A stretch of DNA of 64,000 nucleotides from Caulobacter sp. S45 (GTDB lineage Bacteria; Pseudomonadota; Alphaproteobacteria; Caulobacterales; Caulobacteraceae): the NCBI RefSeq assembly GCF_009765965.1, contig NZ_LMUL01000014.1:314557-378556 (forward strand). Direction: 5' to 3'. Positions 5,917 through 63,214 of the stretch are shown here, one piece after another (the stretch's first letter is position 1; each line of letters opens with the position of its first letter). The position numbers were made by a program, and so were the translations under genes. The notes beneath the pieces are model-generated. The model saw only the letters and a program-made list of their open reading frames with translations, made no database searches and was not told the origin of the DNA.

Positions 5917-6705
5917 ATGAGAGCCCTTCGAATCGCCGCCACCGGCATGGCCGCCCAGCAGATGAACGTGGAGGTGATCTCCAACAACATCGCGAACATG
6001 AACACCGTCGGCTACAAGATGCAACGGGCCCAGTTCGAAGACTTGGTCTACGAGAACGTGCAGCGACCCGGCGCCCAGTCCTCCGACACCGGGACGGTGG
6101 TGCCGACCGGCATCCAGCTCGGCTCGGGTGTAAAGACCGGCACGGTGTACCGGATCACCACCCAGGGCTCGCCGACCTCGACCGGCAATAAGCTGGACAT
6201 CGCCATCAACGGGCGCGGCTACATCCAGGTCCAGCTACCCTCGGGCGACATCGCCTACACCCGCGCCGGCAACCTGGCCCAAAACGACCAGGGCCAGATC
6301 GTGACGGCGGACGGCTATCAGGTCATCCCGCAGATGACCGTTCCCCAGACCGCGACCGACATCTCCATATCGGCCACAGGCCAGTTCCAGGTCACCATAC
6401 CCGGTCAGGTCCAGACCCAGCAGATCGGCCAGCTCCAGCTCGCCACCTTCTTCAACGAGGCGGGGCTCGAAGCCACCGGCAACAACCTGTTCCTGCAGAG
6501 CGGTTCATCCGGCAATCCGGTCACCGGCAATCCCGGCGCGGTGGGTTTCGGCACCGTCCAGCAGGGCTTCACCGAAGCCTCCAACGTGGACCCGGTGAAC
6601 GAGATCTCGTCGTTGATCGTCGCCCAGCGCGCCTACGAAATGAACTCCAAGGTCGTCACCTCGGCCGACCAGATGCTCCAGACCACCAACCAGATGAAGT
6701 CGTGA
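5917..6705 (+). CDS. flgG: Flagellar distal rod protein FlgG
   Basis: FlgG builds the distal rod. The 262-residue length is standard. The N-terminal motif MRALRIAATGMAAQQMNVEV and NNIANMNTVGYK is diagnostic of the family. The central region has the FlgG core (NGRGYIQVQLPSGDIAYTRA). The C-terminus carries the family helix (VNEISSLIVAQRAYEMNSK). It follows flgF by 18 bases and precedes flgA by 4 bases. Confidence 0.97.
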   Translation: MRALRIAATGMAAQQMNVEVISNNIANMNTVGYKMQRAQFEDLVYENVQRPGAQSSDTGTVVPTGIQLGSGVKTGTVYRITTQGSPTSTGNKLDIAINGRGYIQVQLPSGDIAYTRAGNLAQNDQGQIVTADGYQVIPQMTVPQTATDISISATGQFQVTIPGQVQTQQIGQLQLATFFNEAGLEATGNNLFLQSGSSGNPVTGNPGAVGFGTVQQGFTEASNVDPVNEISSLIVAQRAYEMNSKVVTSADQMLQTTNQMKS

Positions 6706-6709
6706 GGTC

Positions 6710-7489
6710 ATGACCAAGCTTCTTTTCCTCCTGGCGTCCGGATCGGTCCTGCTCGCCGCGTCCGCCGCCCTGGCCGGCGAGCCGGTCAGCCTGCGCAGCA
6801 ATGCGCTTGGGCACGGCGGGGTGGTCACGCTCGGCGACCTGTTCGACGGCGCAGCGGGATCGTCGGCCACGGTGGTGGTGGCGCGCTCGGCGCCCGGAAC
6901 CCAGGCCGTGCTCGACTCCGGCGACGTCCAGCGCGCCGCCCACGCGGCCGGTCTGGATTGGGACAACACCCAGGGCCTGCGGCGGATCATCGTCAACATC
7001 GTCGCCGCCCCCCGCACGACGAGCGCAGGCTCAAGCCGTACGGCCCATCACCTGCGCGCCCCGGCCCAGGTCTTGGTCTATGCGCACAATATGATGGCGG
7101 GCGATGTGGTCGCCGCCTCCGACCTGGAGTGGAGCGCCGAAGCCGTCGCCGCCGACGACACCCCCCACGACGCGCAAGCCGTCATCGGCAAGGCTGCGCG
7201 CGGACCGCTCCGCGCCGGCGCGGCTGTGACCATCCACGAACTGGTCAATCCAAAGGTAGTCCGCCGCAACGACATGATCTCGGTCGACTTCTCAAGCGAC
7301 GGAGTGACCCTCAGCCTGATCGGCAAGGCCATGGGCGACGCCTCGGCCGGCGACCCGATCGAGGTGATGAACACCAGCTCCAAGAAGATCATCCAGGCCA
7401 TCGTCGTCGCCCCGGGCCGAGCCGTCGTCGGCCCCGCCGCCGAGGCCGTCCGCGCCAATCCCATCTTCCGCACCGCCGCCCTGCCCTGA
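6710..7489 (+). CDS. flgA: P-ring assembly chaperone FlgA
   Basis: FlgA is a periplasmic chaperone needed to assemble the FlgI P-ring around the rod. The 259-residue product has a signal peptide (MTKLLFLLASGSVLLAASAA, cleavage near ALAG). An SAF-like domain covers the C-terminal half: VYAHNMMAGDVVAASDLEW, then GKAARGPLRAGAAVTIHELV. The start lies 4 bases after flgG, so the genes are co-transcribed. The family is variable, but length, signal and position agree. Confidence 0.92.
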   Translation: MTKLLFLLASGSVLLAASAALAGEPVSLRSNALGHGGVVTLGDLFDGAAGSSATVVVARSAPGTQAVLDSGDVQRAAHAAGLDWDNTQGLRRIIVNIVAAPRTTSAGSSRTAHHLRAPAQVLVYAHNMMAGDVVAASDLEWSAEAVAADDTPHDAQAVIGKAARGPLRAGAAVTIHELVNPKVVRRNDMISVDFSSDGVTLSLIGKAMGDASAGDPIEVMNTSSKKIIQAIVVAPGRAVVGPAAEAVRANPIFRTAALP

Positions 7490-55294: not shown

Positions 55295-56020
55295 TCAGCC
55301 CGTAGAGACGATTACAGACTCCAGGTCGATCATGAATGTGGATGGCGCGCTCAGCGTCGCGATGTTTCCGTCTCCGCGCGGAACCACTCGCCGATGAGTA
55401 GGGAAGATGAACCCGTCGAAGGTCGCGTGATCGAACACGTAGTGGGCGGCGCTTCCACGTCCGACGTCGGTGAAATAGTCATGCCGCTGTAGAAGACCCT
55501 TGTCGTTAAAGTAGAAGTTTTGGATTGCGCAATGCGTGTCCAAGTCCTCTGGAAAATTCGCCTGCAGCACCCGCCACGTCTCGCCGTTCTCCTCCCATGG
55601 TTCAATTTCAACGACCGAGACACCATTAACGGCTAGCAGAAAAGGCGTGGTGAAGTAATTCCAGAAAGCATAGCCAATGAAGTAGAGGAGCTGGAGCTGC
55701 GTCCAGGGGGTCGTTCGCTCGTGCCCGGCGAATGTCTCCCGTGGCCGATCTAGAGCGGCGATCGACTGGCCGGAACTCGTTTGGATCGCCACAGCGCGGT
55801 TCTCGAACAGACCGCGTGCGCCCGGATGGGGGAACGGCGAGATCAGCGTCCGGGGCCGCTGGGTAGCGATCTTCACCAAAGCCCCCTGCAAACCCTGCGG
55901 TTGCTGCTTCACCTGGAGAAGCCGCCCCCTCAACGTCAACCTAAGGTCGATCGTCGTCACCTCACGCCAATTGACGAGTCCACCGTGGGCGTCGAGCACA
56001 AGCTCAAGTAGGTCGGACAT
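55295..56020 (-). CDS. Conserved hypothetical protein, 241 residues
   Basis: The protein starts MSDLLELVLDAHGGLVNWRE and has a beta-rich pattern throughout: IDLRLTLRGRLLQVKQQPQG, then RRVVPRGDGNIATLSAP. Most strands alternate polar and apolar residues, as in lipid-binding or LolA-like folds, but it has no signal peptide. I know similar proteins only as uncharacterised. It ends 219 bases upstream of the hydrolase pseudogene and starts 6 bases after the YciI gene, so it belongs to the leftward operon of the TetR-MarR-controlled cluster. Confidence 0.75.
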   Translation of the reverse strand: MSDLLELVLDAHGGLVNWREVTTIDLRLTLRGRLLQVKQQPQGLQGALVKIATQRPRTLISPFPHPGARGLFENRAVAIQTSSGQSIAALDRPRETFAGHERTTPWTQLQLLYFIGYAFWNYFTTPFLLAVNGVSVVEIEPWEENGETWRVLQANFPEDLDTHCAIQNFYFNDKGLLQRHDYFTDVGRGSAAHYVFDHATFDGFIFPTHRRVVPRGDGNIATLSAPSTFMIDLESVIVSTG

Positions 56021-56026
56021 CTAACC

Positions 56027-56320
56027 CTACTCGGTAACGTGAAGGCGCGTGGGATCGGCGCCATGGACTTCATATGCCCGCAGCTTGTAGCTGCGGATCG
56101 CACCGGCGCGGATATAGGGGTCCTCATCCACGAGACGTTGGGCGTCTTCCAGGGTGGCGGCGTCGTAGAGGAACAGGCCTCCATCGTCCTCAGGGACGAA
56201 GGAGCCCGCGCAGATCACCCGCCCCTCCCCGATGAGTTGGTGCATGTAGGCGCGATGCTCAGGCCGGACCCGCGCTATGGCGGCCAGATCGCCATAGTCC
56301 ATGACGCACATGTAGATCAT
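56027..56320 (-). CDS. YciI family protein
   Basis: The 97-residue protein has the YciI/YCII ferredoxin-like fold: AIARVRPEHRAYMHQLIGEG with the conserved His-containing helix, VICAGSFVPEDDGGLFLYDA, and AQRLVDEDPYIRAGAI with the conserved Asp-Pro pair. The family includes small dehydrochlorinase-like and other uncharacterised enzymes. It lies between the oxidoreductase and the conserved hypothetical gene in the leftward operon. Confidence 0.88.
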   Translation of the reverse strand: MIYMCVMDYGDLAAIARVRPEHRAYMHQLIGEGRVICAGSFVPEDDGGLFLYDAATLEDAQRLVDEDPYIRAGAIRSYKLRAYEVHGADPTRLHVTE

Positions 56321-56352: not shown

Positions 56353-57453
56353 TCAGGCGGCCCGCTCTCGGTCGACGTTCACCACGACCTTGCCGACGGG
56401 GCCGTGTCCGGCCGCCATCGCCGCGAGTTCCGCATTGATCTCGGCCGGGCCGCTATCGATCCGCTTGCCTATGTGCGGCGTCACACGGCCATCGAGCGCC
56501 CAGGCCATGGCCGCCTGCATCGCTTGGCCGAAGAAGGCCTGGGCGGCGGCGTCCATCAGCTCCGGCTGGGAGAAGTAGCGCAGCATGTTGGCGTTCACCT
56601 GCCGCGCGCCGCGTTCGGCCAGGATGGCGTCGACGGGGCTTTCGGTCTCGCCGGTCCGCGTGGTCTTGCCGGGTCCGACGCCGAGCACCACCCAGGTCCC
56701 GCCCTCGCGCACCATGGCCGCCGTTTCTACAAAGCCCTTCTCGCTGTAGGTCGCGTCAAACACCAGGTCGACGCCGCGGCCATCTGTCAACCGATCGATC
56801 TCGGCGGCGACATCCTCCTGCTTGTAATCGAACACCTGGTGCGCACCGGAGGCCCGCGCCAACGCCAGCGATTGCGGGCCGCCCGCGCTGCTGACGACTA
56901 GACCGGCCCCGAGCGTACGGGCCGCCATCTGCACTGCAAGGTGTCCCACGCCCCCGCCGCCGCCGGGAATGTAGACCGTGTCGCCCTTGGAGATGTTGGG
57001 TTGCAGCCCGAGATAGGCGGCGATGAAGCACAAGGGCAGCGCGGCGGCGTCGCTGAAGCTCAGCGAGCCGGGCTTGGAGGCGGTGAAGCATTCCCGCGCC
57101 AAGGCGTAGCCGCCCTGCCCGCCCGTGGCCCAGCCGCCATCCCCGTTCGAATCCGCCATGGCGGCGACCGCATCGCCGACAGAGAAGCGGGTCACGCCCT
57201 CACCGACCGCGACCACCACGCCAGCCATATCGAACCCCAGGACGACCGGAGGAGACCGGCCGAAGAAGTTCAACTGGGCGAGCTTGTATTCCAGCGGGTT
57301 GAGGGAGGAGCAGACGACGTGGATCAGAACCTGATCCGGGCCGGGCTTGGGAACCGGAACCTTCACCGCTTCGAGAGGGAAGCCGTCGCGGCTCTTGGTG
57401 TAGCCGACGCCTTCGAAGTCCGCCGGCACGGCGGGCGCGTGCAATTGGGTCAT
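56353..57453 (-). CDS. Zinc-independent MDR oxidoreductase (quinone-oxidoreductase-like)
   Basis: The 366-residue protein belongs to the medium-chain dehydrogenase/reductase superfamily. The N-terminal domain (DQVLIHVVCSSLNPLEYKLA, VVLGFDMAGVVVAVGEGV) lacks the zinc-binding cysteine and histidine ligands. The Rossmann domain has the glycine motif IPGGGGGVGHLAVQMAA. The usual reaction is NADPH-dependent reduction of quinones or activated double bonds. It follows the DUF302 gene by 81 bases and precedes YciI by 32 bases in the leftward operon. A role in redox detoxification is inferred. Confidence 0.88.
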   Translation of the reverse strand: MTQLHAPAVPADFEGVGYTKSRDGFPLEAVKVPVPKPGPDQVLIHVVCSSLNPLEYKLAQLNFFGRSPPVVLGFDMAGVVVAVGEGVTRFSVGDAVAAMADSNGDGGWATGGQGGYALARECFTASKPGSLSFSDAAALPLCFIAAYLGLQPNISKGDTVYIPGGGGGVGHLAVQMAARTLGAGLVVSSAGGPQSLALARASGAHQVFDYKQEDVAAEIDRLTDGRGVDLVFDATYSEKGFVETAAMVREGGTWVVLGVGPGKTTRTGETESPVDAILAERGARQVNANMLRYFSQPELMDAAAQAFFGQAMQAAMAWALDGRVTPHIGKRIDSGPAEINAELAAMAAGHGPVGKVVVNVDRERAA

Positions 57454-57534: not shown

Positions 57535-58032
57535 TCAGGCGGGCGCACCGGCCATGTCGGTGAAGAAAGCCACCACCTTCTCGTCGATGGGACGGGCGGC
57601 TGCATCGACGGCGTCGTTGTGCAGATGGCTCATCAAGGTCGACGGCAAGTCGTAGGCGATGCGCGCCTCGCCCTCGGGCGTTTCATAGATCATGACGCGG
57701 AAGGGGACCTGGAAGCACGCGCCGATGTCGTGCTTGACCATGCTGTAGGCCAGGATCGGGTTGCCGTAGGTGTACTGCTTCGCCTTGGCCTGGATGCCGT
57801 AGAGCCTTTGCCATCGACCGTGGTCGAAGCTGAGCACATGGACAAATCCGCTCGGGCCGAAATGCATCTTGCAAAGCGCCTCCCACTCCGCAGCCGTGGA
57901 AAGCGCCTGCATCTCGTTCAGGAACCGGCCATCGTCACCGTCGCCGACCGCCTGCTCGAAGGCCGTCACTAGGTCCTCGAACGACTTGGGGCTCACGTGC
58001 TCGTAGTGCTTCACGACGTATTCGCTGATCAT
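57535..58032 (-). CDS. DUF302 domain protein (leftward paralogue)
   Basis: The 165-residue cytoplasmic protein has the DUF302 pattern: SPKSFEDLVTAFEQAVGDGD, QYTYGNPILAYSMVKHDIGA, PFRVMIYETPEGEARIAYDL, then PSTLMSHLHND. Family members bind small ligands or membranes, but no biochemical role is established. A paralogue with the same blocks is encoded at 59300 on the other side of the regulator. It is the first gene of the leftward operon and starts 40 bases left of the inverted-repeat operator. Confidence 0.87.
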   Translation of the reverse strand: MISEYVVKHYEHVSPKSFEDLVTAFEQAVGDGDDGRFLNEMQALSTAAEWEALCKMHFGPSGFVHVLSFDHGRWQRLYGIQAKAKQYTYGNPILAYSMVKHDIGACFQVPFRVMIYETPEGEARIAYDLPSTLMSHLHNDAVDAAARPIDEKVVAFFTDMAGAPA

Positions 58033-58071: not shown

Positions 58072-58109
58072 ATGGCGATCGTCATCGTTGCATAGGTGAC
58101 GATCGCCAT
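58072..58109. promoter_or_regulatory. Perfect 13-base inverted repeat, probable operator of the TetR-MarR fusion regulator
   Basis: ATGGCGATCGTCA (58072-58084) and TGACGATCGCCAT (58097-58109) are exact inverted copies separated by 12 bases. The site lies between the divergent DUF302 gene (start 58032) and the regulator (GTG 58149), with an A/T-rich TTATATTTG stretch after the right arm that could be a -10 element. Each arm contains CGATCG, so each may be a half-operator. This is a classical position for autoregulation plus control of the leftward operon. Confidence 0.65.
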
Positions 58110-58148: not shown

Positions 58149-59216
58149 GTGCGGGTTTCCAAGGAGAAGGCGGCCGACAACCGCAGGCGGATCGTCGAGA
58201 GCGCAGCGCGCCTTTTCCGTGAGCGGGGCCTGGCCAGCGTGGGGGTGGACGAGTTGGCCGCCGCCGCGGGCCTCAGTTACGGTGGCCTCTACAGCCAGTT
58301 CAGATCCAAGGACGGCTTGGCCGCCGAGGCCGTGGATCAGGCGTTTACAGCCTTTGCCGACAGGATGGCGGACAACGTCCGTCTGGCGGACTACGTGGCG
58401 GAATACCTCTCGCCGGACCACCGCGACCATCGCGGCGATGGCTGTGCACTCTCCGCGCTGGGCAGCGAAATCCCCCGCCAGAGCCCGTCCGTTCGCGCCC
58501 GCTTCACCGCCGGGATCAGACGGACCCACGCCAGGATACGAGGCCTGCTGACGAACACCCCCGCGACACCCGCCGCCGATGACGAGGCCTGGGCCACCAT
58601 GGCGACGATGCTAGGCTCGCTGATCTTGGCGCGGGCGATGGACGAACCGGAATTGGCGGATCGCATCTTGCGTATCGGCCGGGAAACGCTCGCGAACAGG
58701 CAAACCTTCACCGATCTGTCGCCACCCTCCGCCGATCCAGCGCCATTTGCGCAGGATCCGTCCAAATGCAGCGCCACACTGCTCCGCAAGGCCTCGCGAC
58801 GCCTATCTTCCCTTTATGATTCCGCCTTGGCGGGAACCGGCTTGACCATCACCCAGTACGCCCTGCTCGTGGAGATCGACCGCCCACGCGAGACGGCCCC
58901 GACCCTGACCGAACTCGCGGAGGCGATGGTCATGGACCGGTCCGGCCTTGGCCACGGGCTACGCCCCCTACAGCGGGACGGCCTGATCGAACTCGTGCAA
59001 GGCGATCGGGACCATCGCAGCCGCCATATCGTGCTGACGGCCAAGGGGCGCGCGCTCCAGAAGGCGGCCGCACCCTATTGGCGGAAGGCGCAGGCGCATT
59101 TCGCCGCCACCGTGCCCCAGGCGGAGGCCGCCGACCTGCGCGGTCGCCTGATCTCCATTGCGCGCAACCCCGCCCTCTTCAGCCTTCCGGCCAACACGTC
59201 GCCGGAAGCGCGATAG
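58149..59216 (+). CDS. TetR-MarR fusion transcriptional regulator
   Basis: One uninterrupted 355-residue frame, from a GTG start, joins two regulators. Residues 1-190 are TetR/AcrR-like: KEKAADNRRRIVESAARLFR, then GVDELAAAAGLSYGGLYSQF as the helix-turn-helix, followed by a TetR-C-like helical domain. After a linker (DLSPPSADPAPFAQDPSK), residues 205-345 are MarR-like: TGLTITQYALLVEIDRPRET, winged helix TLTELAEAMVMDRSGLGHGL, wing GDRDHRSRHIVLTAKGRAL. Both DNA-binding motifs look intact. The adjoining perfect inverted repeat is the likely target. Such a double regulator is unusual. Confidence 0.92.
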   Translation: MRVSKEKAADNRRRIVESAARLFRERGLASVGVDELAAAAGLSYGGLYSQFRSKDGLAAEAVDQAFTAFADRMADNVRLADYVAEYLSPDHRDHRGDGCALSALGSEIPRQSPSVRARFTAGIRRTHARIRGLLTNTPATPAADDEAWATMATMLGSLILARAMDEPELADRILRIGRETLANRQTFTDLSPPSADPAPFAQDPSKCSATLLRKASRRLSSLYDSALAGTGLTITQYALLVEIDRPRETAPTLTELAEAMVMDRSGLGHGLRPLQRDGLIELVQGDRDHRSRHIVLTAKGRALQKAAAPYWRKAQAHFAATVPQAEAADLRGRLISIARNPALFSLPANTSPEAR

Positions 59217-59299
59217 GCCCACCTCCAAATCGTACGCCCGGAAGGAACCAACCCCTTTCATATGCATATACCCCTATATCGGGGCAGCAAGATGGAGAC

Positions 59300-59818
59300 A
59301 TGACCATGGACGTTTACGCAGTTCAGCACATCGAGCACCGCAGCAACCGATCCTTCGAGGACGTGGTCGCAGCCTTCGAAGCCGCCACCGGCGAAATCGA
59401 AGACGGTGCGTTCGCGGAGGAACTCGCCGCATCGACGGACCTGCAGGACTTTGAGCGCCGGATCCGCGGCCATGAAGGCGACAGCGGATTCATGCGCTTC
59501 CTCATGCTCGATCACGGCGCCTGGCTAGCGCTCTACGGCGAGCGGGCCAAATGCCGGCTCTACACGCTCGGCAATCCCCTGATCGCACGCACCATGCTGA
59601 AGCACGATCTGCGCGTCGGCCTGAACGTACCGGTGCGGCTGATGATCTATGAGACGGCGGACGGCGAGACGCGGATCGCCTACGATCAGCCCTCAAGTCT
59701 GATGAGCCGCTTGAACAATCCCGAAGCGGCTGCGGCGGCGGCGAAACTCGACGCCAAGCTGGCGGCGCTGGCCGAACAGGCTGTGGGGCGCGAGCCGATT
59801 GCAGGAACTGTCGCATGA
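59300..59818 (+). CDS. DUF302 domain protein (rightward paralogue)
   Basis: The ATG at 59300 follows GATGGAG and gives 172 residues. The blocks match the leftward paralogue: NRSFEDVVAAFEAATGEIED, LYTLGNPLIARTMLKHDLRV, VRLMIYETADGETRIAYDQP, SSLMSRLNNPE. The alanine-rich C-terminal helix differs. It heads the rightward operon, and its stop codon overlaps the start of the next hydrolase by 4 bases. No enzymatic motif is visible. Confidence 0.87.
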   Translation: MTMDVYAVQHIEHRSNRSFEDVVAAFEAATGEIEDGAFAEELAASTDLQDFERRIRGHEGDSGFMRFLMLDHGAWLALYGERAKCRLYTLGNPLIARTMLKHDLRVGLNVPVRLMIYETADGETRIAYDQPSSLMSRLNNPEAAAAAAKLDAKLAALAEQAVGREPIAGTVA

Positions 59819-60933
59819 TCCGGCAGGCCTCCGGGATGGCGGGCGCGCTTGCGGCGGTCGCGACCGTGGCGGCGGTCTCGAGCCCCGCCCAGGCGCAAAA
59901 CGCCGGCCCCTGGGGGCAAGGCGACAACCCCGCCGCCCCGCAGGCCGACGCCTGGTACGACAACTACCGTTTCCGCGATGGCGAGACCCTAGCCAAGGTG
60001 CGCATACACTACGCCACGCTCGGCACGCCCCACCGGGGCCAGGACGGCGGTGTCGACAACGCGGTCTTGGTGCTGCACTGGACCGGGTCCGACAGCCGCG
60101 CGCTGCTGACCCCCACCTATATGAAGGCCCTATTCGAGCCGGGCCGCCCTCTCGATGCGCGCCGCTACTACCTGATCTTCGCCGACAGCATCGGCCATGG
60201 CCGCTCCTCGCGGCCCAGCGAGGGCCTGAGGGCGCGGTTTCCGCACTACACCTATGGCGACATGGTCGACCTGCAACACAGGTTGGTGACTGAGACCCTA
60301 GGGATCAAACGCCTTCACGCCATCCTCGGCATGTCGATGGGCGGGATGAACGCCTGGCAGTGGGCCGAGACCTATCCAGAGGCGATGGACGGGGTGATGC
60401 CAGTGGTGTCGCTCCCCATCAAGGTCTCGGGGCGCAACCTGATCTGGCGCCGGCTGGCCATCAGCTACATCGAGACCGATCCGGACTGGCAGGGCGGCGA
60501 TTATACCAAGCCTTTCAAGGGCTGGACCCAATCCTATCAGCTCCTGCGGATGATGATCGACGGCGTGCCCCACATGCAGGCCATCGCCCCGGACACCACC
60601 TCAGCCGACACGTTCCTGGCCGACGCCGCCGCCCAATCCGCCGGAGCCGATCCGAGCGACGTGATCTATTCCCTGAAGTCGTCGGCCGACTACGATCCCG
60701 AGCCCGGCCTCGGAAGCATCCGCACCAAGCTCTACGCGCTTAATTTCGGTGACGACGAGTTCAACCCCGACGTCCTGCAAGTCCTCGAGACCGACATCAA
60801 GCGGGTGCCGAACGGCCGCGCCGTGGTGCAACCCGGAACGCCAAGCTCGTTCGGCCACCTGACCATGGCCCATCCGGAACTCTGGGCCGACCAGGTGGCC
60901 AAATTCATGCATTGGCTCGGCGATGGGACATGA
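59815..60933 (+). CDS. Exported alpha/beta hydrolase, MetX-like
   Basis: The 372-residue protein has a signal peptide (MIRQASGMAGALAAVATVAA, then VSSPAQAQ). The fold follows the homoserine acetyltransferase-like group: LVLHWTGSDSRALLTPTY, SIGHGRSSRPSEGLRARFPH, and the nucleophile elbow ILGMSMGGMNAWQWAETYPE with catalytic Ser in GMSMGG. The acid and base lie near FGDDEFNP and SSFGHLTMAHPE. Export argues against methionine synthesis, so it is more likely an esterase or acyltransferase of unknown substrate. It is coupled by 4-base overlaps to the genes on both sides. Confidence 0.88.
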   Translation: MIRQASGMAGALAAVATVAAVSSPAQAQNAGPWGQGDNPAAPQADAWYDNYRFRDGETLAKVRIHYATLGTPHRGQDGGVDNAVLVLHWTGSDSRALLTPTYMKALFEPGRPLDARRYYLIFADSIGHGRSSRPSEGLRARFPHYTYGDMVDLQHRLVTETLGIKRLHAILGMSMGGMNAWQWAETYPEAMDGVMPVVSLPIKVSGRNLIWRRLAISYIETDPDWQGGDYTKPFKGWTQSYQLLRMMIDGVPHMQAIAPDTTSADTFLADAAAQSAGADPSDVIYSLKSSADYDPEPGLGSIRTKLYALNFGDDEFNPDVLQVLETDIKRVPNGRAVVQPGTPSSFGHLTMAHPELWADQVAKFMHWLGDGT

Positions 60934-62030
60934 GCGGCGCGATGATCGCCGTGCATCGCCGCGCCTTTGTCGGCTCCCTCGCCGGCGTCGCCCTGACGGG
61001 TCCGGCCGTGGCTGAGGACGCGTCTTTCACGGTTCGCCGGGTCGCCACCCCGCGGCACACGACCGCCTACCTCGACACAGGGCCGGCCGACGGACCACCG
61101 ATGATCTTCGTCCACGGCTGGCCGGAGCTCAGCCTGGTCTGGCGCGCCCAGATGGAGCATTTCGCGGTCGCCGGCTGGCGCTGCATCGCGCCGGACATGC
61201 GCGGCTACGGCGGCTCTTCCACGCCGAAAGCCACGAGCGCCTATGCGATACGGGAGCTGGTCGCCGACATAATCGAACTGCACGACGCCCTCGGCGGCGC
61301 GCCCGCTGTCTGGGTGGGCCACGACTGGGGGAGCCCGGTCGTCAGCGCCCTCGCCGCTCGTCATCCCGAGCGGTGCCGCGGCGCGGTCCTGATCTCTCTG
61401 CCCTATTTCCCGCGAGGCTTCGCCCTGGCGAACCTCACCCCCCTGGTCGACCGCAGCCTCTATCCGGTTGATCAATACCCCGACGGCCAATGGGACTATT
61501 TCCGCTTCTATCAAACTCATTTCGACCAGGCGGCGCGCGACTATGAAGCGGATATTCCCGCCACCCTGGCTTCGATCTTGAAGCCCGGCTCGCCAGCAGA
61601 CGTCGGCAAGCCCTCGCCCACGGCCAGGGTGACGGCCAACGGCGGTCGCTACGGCGCTGCACACCGGGCGCCGCCGACGCTACCGGGCGCCTCGATGATC
61701 CCGCAGGCGGACTTCGACACCTGGACAGCGGCGTTCCGCAAGACCGGGTTTGGTCCCGCAGACGCCTGGTATCTGAACGATGCGGCCAACATCGCTTATG
61801 CCGAGGGCGCACCTGATAGAGGCAGGCTTCACCAACCCATCCTGTTCCTAAACGGCGCGTGGGACGGGATCTGCGACATCACCCGAAGCCGGCTCGGCGA
61901 GCCGATGCACCAAGCCTGCGCCGATCTGACCGTGGTCGACCTTCCGGGCGGCCATTGGCTACCGCTGGAGCGCCAGGCCGAGGTCAATGCGGCGATCGAC
62001 CGGTGGCGATCGGCGAAACTGGGAATGTGA
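60930..62030 (+). CDS. Exported alpha/beta hydrolase, epoxide-hydrolase type
   Basis: The ATG at 60930 overlaps the previous stop codon (ATGA) and gives 366 residues. The N-terminus has an Arg-Arg pair and hydrophobic stretch (HRRAFVGSLAGVALTGPAVA), which suggests Tat export. Soluble epoxide hydrolase motifs are present: oxyanion HGWPE in PPMIFVHGWPELSLVWRAQM, nucleophile Asp in VWVGHDWGSPVVSALAARHP, and catalytic His in DLPGGHWLPLE. It would hydrolyse an epoxide or haloalkane-like substrate, not identified here. It is the third gene of the rightward operon. Confidence 0.88.
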   Translation: MSGAMIAVHRRAFVGSLAGVALTGPAVAEDASFTVRRVATPRHTTAYLDTGPADGPPMIFVHGWPELSLVWRAQMEHFAVAGWRCIAPDMRGYGGSSTPKATSAYAIRELVADIIELHDALGGAPAVWVGHDWGSPVVSALAARHPERCRGAVLISLPYFPRGFALANLTPLVDRSLYPVDQYPDGQWDYFRFYQTHFDQAARDYEADIPATLASILKPGSPADVGKPSPTARVTANGGRYGAAHRAPPTLPGASMIPQADFDTWTAAFRKTGFGPADAWYLNDAANIAYAEGAPDRGRLHQPILFLNGAWDGICDITRSRLGEPMHQACADLTVVDLPGGHWLPLERQAEVNAAIDRWRSAKLGM

Positions 62031-63214
62031 GCGAGTCCATGATCCTTCCTCCCGCGACCGACGCGCTGACACCCTTCCGCATCGCGGTTCCGCAGGCGCG
62101 ACTCGACGACCTGAACCGGCGCCTGGCCGACGTGCGTTGGCCCGACGCCGGCCCCGCGGAGGACTGGAGCCAGGGCGTGCCGCTCGCCGTCGCACGGGCT
62201 CTCATCGCCCATTGGCGCGACCACTATGATTGGCGGCGGTTCGAGGCGCAGGCCAATGTCTATCCACAAGTGCGCACCCGGATCGACGGCCTCGGTTTTC
62301 ACCTCTTCCACGTACGCTCGCCCCACGTTGGGGCCCTGCCGATCGTATTGACCCATGGCTGGCCCGGCTCGTTCGTCGAGTTCCTGGCCGTCATCGATCC
62401 ACTGGTGGACCCCACCCGTCACGGCGGGCGGGCGCAGGACGCCTTTCACGTGGTTATCCCATCGCTCCCCGGATTCGGCTTCTCCGACAAACCTTCGGAG
62501 CGAGGTTGGGACGCGGGCCGTACGGCGCGTGCGTGGGCCGTTCTGATGCAGAGGCTCGGCTACGACCGGTGGGTGGCGCAGGGCGGGGACTGGGGCTCGC
62601 GCGTGGTGCACGCCCTGGCCCAGATGCGGCCCCCGGGGTTAGTCGCGGCGCATACCAACTGGCCCTATGTATTTCCCGCGGAAAAGCCGGCGCATCCCGC
62701 GCCCGCCGAGATAGCCGCCTACGCCGACCTGCAACGCTTCTTGGATTATGGGACCGGCTACGCCAAGGCGCAGCAGACCCGCCCCCAAACCCTGGGTTAC
62801 GCTCTGGCCGATTCTCCTGTCGGCCAGGCCATGTGGATCTACGAGAAGTTCCACGCTTGGACCGACAATCATGGCCGACCCGAGGACGCTCTCTCGACCG
62901 ACGCCATGCTAGACGACATCACCCTCTATTGGCTGACCGACAGCGCCGCTTCATCGGCCCGTTTCTATCTCGAGAATACCAAGCCGGGTCCGCCATCCTA
63001 TTCGGCCGGGCGGATCGATCTGCCAATCGCGGCCTCGATTTTCCCAAAGGAAATCTATCGCCCTCCACGCGCATGGGCCGAGGCGCTTTGGCCCAATCTC
63101 ATCCACTGGAACGAGCTCGACCGCGGCGGTCACTTCGCCGCTTTCGAACAGCCAGAAATTTTCGTCGATGAATTACGCAGGGCGTTCCACACCGTTAGAA
63201 ACTCGGCGCCATAG
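62027..63214 (+). CDS. Epoxide hydrolase with N-terminal EHN domain
   Basis: The GTG at 62027 overlaps the previous stop codon (GTGA) and gives 395 residues. The EHN domain is at the start (ALTPFRIAVPQARLDDLNRR, then LADVRWPDAGPAEDWSQGVP). The alpha/beta-hydrolase core has HGWPGSFVEFLAVIDPLVDP, PSLPGFGFSDKPSERGWDAG, nucleophile Asp in VAQGGDWGSRVVHALAQ, and C-terminal His in DRGGHFAAFEQPE. There is no signal peptide, so unlike its two upstream partners it is probably cytoplasmic. It is the last gene of the rightward operon. Confidence 0.92.
   Translation: MSESMILPPATDALTPFRIAVPQARLDDLNRRLADVRWPDAGPAEDWSQGVPLAVARALIAHWRDHYDWRRFEAQANVYPQVRTRIDGLGFHLFHVRSPHVGALPIVLTHGWPGSFVEFLAVIDPLVDPTRHGGRAQDAFHVVIPSLPGFGFSDKPSERGWDAGRTARAWAVLMQRLGYDRWVAQGGDWGSRVVHALAQMRPPGLVAAHTNWPYVFPAEKPAHPAPAEIAAYADLQRFLDYGTGYAKAQQTRPQTLGYALADSPVGQAMWIYEKFHAWTDNHGRPEDALSTDAMLDDITLYWLTDSAASSARFYLENTKPGPPSYSAGRIDLPIAASIFPKEIYRPPRAWAEALWPNLIHWNELDRGGHFAAFEQPEIFVDELRRAFHTVRNSAP

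Follow-up and report, generated by a model that had tools for sequence, protein, structure and literature searches.

TetR and MarR are two large families of bacterial repressors, the members of which are normally separate homodimers. Two complete repressor units per chain are known from Mce3R and the other actinomycete double-TetR repressors (double TFRs), which are rare in bacterial genomes (PMC11667970), and in Mce3R the two TetR domains pair on one non-palindromic site (PMC11667970). In the TetR-fold regulator NemR of E. coli, Cys106 is the chlorine-sensing residue (PMC5297802), and in the MarR regulator MosR the cysteines sense peroxide (PMC11351531); the published MosR consensus operator is gTGTAnnTACAc (PMC9506551). 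A survey of companion domains counts 70 such domains for TetR, among which MarR is not named in the accessible part of that source (PMC5882156).

In Caulobacter sp. S45, a single reading frame joins a TetR and a MarR repressor. The frame lies in the window (the whole 64,000-nucleotide stretch of DNA that was analysed) between two small operons, with one site resembling a TetR-family operator upstream and one resembling a MarR-family operator downstream, and one fusion molecule probably controls both of these neighbouring, detoxification-type gene sets.

Structure of the fusion gene

The frame was intact over 355 residues (58149–59216, plus strand), with a GTG start and no internal stop, and encoded a complete TetR repressor followed, after a Pro-rich linker, by a complete MarR winged helix. 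The TetR half (residues 1–189; 58149–58715, plus strand) carried an N-terminal helix-turn-helix with its recognition helix at about residues 44–50. It was matched by Pfam TetR_N (PF00440; residues 15–60, E=1.6e-13, 50.6 bits, above the cut-off of 24) and TetR_C_13 (E=6.8e-6, 26.9 bits against a cut-off of 27), and, among PDB sequences, by 2fd5 over residues 6–180 (E=1.9e-18). The MosR-like MarR half (residues 204–355 plus stop codon; 58758–59216, plus strand) was matched by MosR of M. tuberculosis (4fx0/4fx4), the alignment with 4fx0 covering residues 206–323 (E=2.9e-17), and by Pfam MarR_2 over residues 231–291 (E=2.1e-5, 25.0 bits, just below the curated cut-off of 27). The linker (about residues 190–204, NRQTFTDLSPPSADPAP...; 58716–58757, plus strand) contained several prolines and neither a stop nor an in-frame start codon. 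Its length was put at ~15 residues from the borders of the relatives: those of TetR type stop at window residues 182–200, and those of MarR type mostly start 5–17 residues ahead of C207.

Structures were predicted with AlphaFold2 for each half separately, because a joint alignment of both misplaced the C-termini of the TetR relatives; plasmid-derived rows were left out of the alignments. The TetR half was modelled with a mean pLDDT of 93 and contained the full set of helices, among them the dimerisation pair (141–163 and 167–189). For the MarR half the mean pLDDT was 88.9, and the model comprised the recognition helix (264–276), the wing strands (280–284/292–296) and the flanking dimer helices; the near-invariant MarR residues were kept, and the linker was of low confidence. 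Both folds are complete in these models. Foldseek searches returned 2fd5 as the best PDB match of the TetR half, together with 3qbm and NemR (4yze), and MosR as the first match of the MarR half, followed by CouR, MepR and SlyA. Rv2887 had been considered as the nearest MarR and was discarded: its published site is of a GC-rich CGATCG type, and the best match by Foldseek was MosR. A single 355-residue frame with both modules, as described in a first-pass annotation of this DNA, was thus borne out by the frame itself, Pfam, PDB sequences and AlphaFold2, although in the Pfam search of the one chain only TetR_N exceeded its cut-off, while MarR_2 remained under it.

Predicted operators on either side of the gene

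The putative operator of the TetR half lay in the divergent promoter region upstream of the fusion gene (TGGCGATCGTCA-12 nt-TGACGATCGCCA, 58073–58108). Here the near-palindrome TGRCGATCGYCA occurred twice, 24 bp apart (ATGGCGATCGTCA-12-TGACGATCGCCAT, 58072–58109), and the two copies jointly formed a 13-bp perfect inverted repeat. The upstream regions of 29 TetR relatives (40–51% identity) were surveyed for this pattern, using dinucleotide shuffles and coding regions as controls. Two such palindromes were present in 10 of the 29 (shuffle mean 0.005) and at least one in 14 (shuffle mean 0.375; coding controls 0), the copies typically being placed near -75 and -50; about half of the close TetR relatives had no clear palindrome match. 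Tandem palindromes of the TGRYGATCRYCA class, ~25 bp apart near -75/-50, were found upstream of L021, L022, L023, L049, L093, L002 and L052. When a matrix was built from the relatives, excluding the window, the two window copies ranked first and second in the 64 kb, and no second copy of the double site occurred in the 4.89-Mb genome when up to three mismatches were allowed. The tandem palindrome is a predicted family operator of this TetR subfamily. No consensus sigma-70 promoter was found by a promoter scan.

In the gap that separates the end of the fusion gene from the gene after it, a putative operator of the MarR half was located at 59260–59275 (ATATGCATATACCCCT, core GCATATAC). A GYATATRC palindrome was present beside 11 of 29 MarR relatives (shuffle mean 0.30). 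This pattern had been chosen after viewing both the relatives and the window and was hence retested on 11 loci fetched later, five of which contained it (shuffle mean 0.22, maximum 2 in 500 shuffles). With a matrix derived from the MarR relatives, again excluding the window, 59260–59275 ranked first in the 64 kb at 18.6 bits, the runner-up scoring 13.8. The GYATATRC palindrome matches the MosR consensus in form, and aTGCAtaTACcc at 59262–59273 agreed with it at 7 of the 10 specified positions, with the GYATATRC core exact. In the nearest MarR relative (Variovorax, 51%), TATGGGCATATGCCCCTA was found between marR and an MFS gene. Each of three Paraburkholderia loci (L042, L043 and L044, around 6000-6960) contained a tandem pair of MarR paralogues, and in L042 and L043 a GYATATRC palindrome lay between them. 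The MarR operator is predicted less strongly than the TetR operator, because it is a single, imperfect palindrome and because a loose version of its pattern was no commoner genome-wide than a reversed control.

Neighbouring operons

The left operon, on the minus strand, consisted of a gene for a DUF302 protein (DUF302a, 57535–58032, first in the operon; Pfam DUF302 E=4.7e-7), a medium-chain zinc-binding dehydrogenase resembling quinone oxidoreductases (56353–57453), a YCII-domain protein (56027–56320) and a 241-aa protein without a family match (55295–56020). The right operon, from 59300 on the plus strand, began with a further DUF302 gene (DUF302b, 59300–59818) and continued with an alpha/beta hydrolase of MetX-like fold (59815–60933), another alpha/beta hydrolase (60912–62030) and an epoxide-hydrolase-like protein (61859–63214, with the true start probably near 62039; Pfam EHN E=1.2e-34). 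According to the first-pass annotation, the fusion may integrate two ligands, or bind two operator types, in controlling the divergent operons around it. Binding of two operator types gains strong but indirect support from the tandem TGRCGATCGYCA upstream and GYATATRC downstream, but the description of the operons held on one side only: the left operon is divergent from the fusion gene, while the right one runs in the same direction.

The DUF302 proteins a and b shared 48–51% identity, whereas b and a copy on a Sphingomonas plasmid were 52% identical, and a recent duplication was therefore rejected. Of 249 genomes from the order, only two had DUF302 genes of this type, and one of the two was the genome that contains the window. 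A third DUF302 gene in the same genome (L074:3317-3907) adjoined a paralogue of the MarR half, and on rhizobial plasmids DUF302 genes adjoined TetR genes of the fusion's broad TetR subfamily. The MarR relatives adjoined alkene reductases, hydrolases, SDR and aldo/keto reductases and MFS transporters. Judging by these neighbours of the TetR and MarR relatives, the families of both halves accompany small detoxification-type gene sets. In a distant genome of the phylum, a DUF302 gene was clustered with two dehydrogenase genes and a gene whose product was 40% identical to the 241-aa protein (L131:1262-5598); the left operon is thus partly conserved as a unit.

Relatives and distribution of the fusion

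A second TetR–MarR fusion was sought with the whole protein as query, and none was found. The genome sets covered, which overlap, comprised 100 near relatives, 390 members of the family, 398 of the order and 385 of the class, plus 43 genomes from another order; a GTDB peptide-pattern scan and PLSDB (72,556 plasmids) likewise gave no second fusion. For the large genome sets the top-ranked candidates of each genome were scored, a fusion being expected to rank first. Among everything searched the query alone covered both halves; the best TetR matches (49–51% identity) and the best MarR matches (about 50%) were all separate genes. Two plasmid records that covered at least 80% of the query also proved to be separate genes. 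It had been stated beforehand that homologues that are always two genes would speak against the fusion; each half's homologues are indeed separate, yet a lineage-specific fusion predicts exactly that. As the fusion was found in one genome only, conservation gives no argument for selection on the joined form. A 255-aa MarR ORF of Sphingomonas panacis (L152:2629-3396) was examined as a fusion and set aside, its N-terminal extension resembling no TetR; an operator-like palindrome falls inside the annotated gene, the start of which was therefore probably annotated too far upstream.

In phylogenetic trees the TetR half clustered with TetR proteins of Bradyrhizobium and of a second alphaproteobacterium (98/90), while for the MarR half the partner was a Variovorax MarR (95/76); the end branch was 1.16 for the MarR half and 0.58 for the TetR half. 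On Variovorax paradoxus plasmids (L071:5001-6062 and L072:4974-6087), a TetR and a MarR gene were direct neighbours on the same strand; in L071 they were separated by 21 nt and shared a frame, and in L072 their frames differed. Their order, strand and broad subfamilies were as in the fusion, but they were two separate genes, and their products were only 33–34% identical to the two halves of the fusion. At that identity the pair is an analogue of the ancestral layout, too distant to be a direct ancestor, and by analogy it illustrates how such a fusion can arise.

Candidate sensing cysteines

One conserved cysteine in each half aligned with a cysteine of a known sensor. Cys99 (codon 58443–58445, plus strand) aligned with NemR Cys106, and the position was Cys in all 52 aligned TetR relatives. 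Cys207 (codon 58767–58769, plus strand) aligned with the first N-terminal cysteine of MosR, and the position was Cys in 35 of 39 MarR relatives; the position of the second MosR cysteine is occupied by Ala209 in the fusion. The conservation of these NemR-like and MosR-like residues would fit two thiol sensors, so that the fusion may integrate two ligands, and, by analogy with NemR and MosR, an oxidant or electrophile would be the most likely input signal.

Proposed mechanism and alternative explanations

From the fusion, its two folds and the two sites we infer binding, repression, co-regulation and a thiol signal, and we consider it reasonably probable that the protein acts as a two-headed homodimer that represses both operons through two operators and is released by a thiol trigger. 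A complete TetR regulator joined to a complete MosR-like MarR regulator would form a homodimer of a single chain. Its TetR heads would bind the tandem TGRCGATCGYCA palindromes at 58073–58108 and so repress the left operon (DUF302a, dehydrogenase, YCII and 241-aa genes) as well as the fusion's own gene, and its MarR heads would bind the GCATATAC palindrome at 59260–59275 and so repress the right operon (DUF302b, the two hydrolases and the epoxide hydrolase). Oxidants or electrophiles acting at Cys99 (NemR-like), Cys207 (MosR-like) or both would release the protein, upon which both detoxification-type operons would respond together. The fusion would hold the two regulators at equal copy number and co-localised.

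That the frame consists of two adjacent genes merged by a sequencing or assembly error, with the loss of a stop codon or a frameshift, would be in keeping with the existence of both halves elsewhere as separate genes and with the neighbouring TetR and MarR genes of V. paradoxus, which share a strand and are separated by 21 nt. For a MarR gene of its own, however, a start near residue 200 would be required, and neither ATG nor GTG occurred in 58669–58765, whatever the frame; the only TTG there was out of frame and had no visible ribosome-binding site. In the fused frame, no ATG, GTG or TTG was found between TTG174 and TTG227 (residues 175–226), MarR homology was already present at Cys207, and third-codon-position G+C stayed high through the join, with the codon bias unbroken; moreover, one error would need to erase the stop and the start together. 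The stop codon or frameshift error that had been feared near residue 195 thus left no sign at the junction. The TetR–MarR fusion is regarded as real, a gene border hidden by an error being unlikely on the sequence, and the merger of two genes in this way is very improbable. An account in which one chain is made and two are at work, either by cleavage of the linker or by production of the MarR part from an internal start, draws on the Pro-rich and predicted flexible linker and on the in-frame ATG164 and TTG174. The first of these codons directly precedes the last TetR helix and the second falls inside it, so that a product started there would carry a stray helix, and we think such a split improbable.

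The strengths of the two sites differ, the TetR site (two copies, a perfect inverted repeat) being far stronger than the one imperfect MarR copy, and the end branch of the MarR half is the longer (1.16 vs 0.58). Both observations would suit a protein in which the TetR half alone is functional, the MarR half being a recently acquired passenger or serving only for dimerisation or ligand binding, with the palindrome downstream left over from the ancestral marR locus. Set against this are the intact frame, the high-confidence fold of the MarR half with its near-invariant residues, wing and recognition helix kept, and a downstream site that is still the top-scoring one in 64 kb, and we judge this account unlikely. 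A variant in which the homodimer grips both operators at once, with a loop of ~1.2 kb around its own gene, and in which a signal to either half frees both operons (an OR gate), is put forward tentatively and appears rather doubtful.

Comparison with known systems

A TetR–MarR fusion was unreported in the open literature searched, and it may have been published elsewhere. The parts are familiar, and their combination with two family operators is not described in anything searchable. A natural chain in which both units are intact, with the predicted family operators on opposite sides of its gene, makes the effect of forcing equal copy number and place testable, and the predicted operators are short and specific enough for quick gel-shift testing. 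The fusion would also be a ready-made template for two-input, two-operator sensors.

NemR, from the E. coli nemRA-gloA operon, resembles the fusion in its TetR fold, in the alignment of its Cys106 with Cys99 and in its reductase- or detoxification-like neighbours, but it shares only 22% identity over 143 residues with the fusion and is without a second DNA-binding domain; nemA (N-ethylmaleimide reductase) and gloA (glyoxalase) were absent next to the fusion gene. MosR (Rv1049 of M. tuberculosis) is the nearest solved MarR by both sequence and fold, and has in common with the MarR half the conserved first N-terminal cysteine and an adjacent oxidoreductase gene, which in MosR is regulated; the operator predicted for the MarR half resembles the palindromic MosR site in form. 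It differs in being a single-domain protein with a Cys10/Cys12 redox pair, whereas the window protein keeps the first of these (C207), has Ala209 in place of the second and bears an N-terminal TetR unit. The double-TetR repressor Mce3R is the nearest published kind: there, as in the TetR–MarR fusion, two repressor units are fused and two DNA-binding heads are present. In Mce3R, however, both units are TetR and share an operator, whereas the second unit of the window fusion is a MarR winged helix and its two predicted operators are unlike each other and about 1.2 kb apart.
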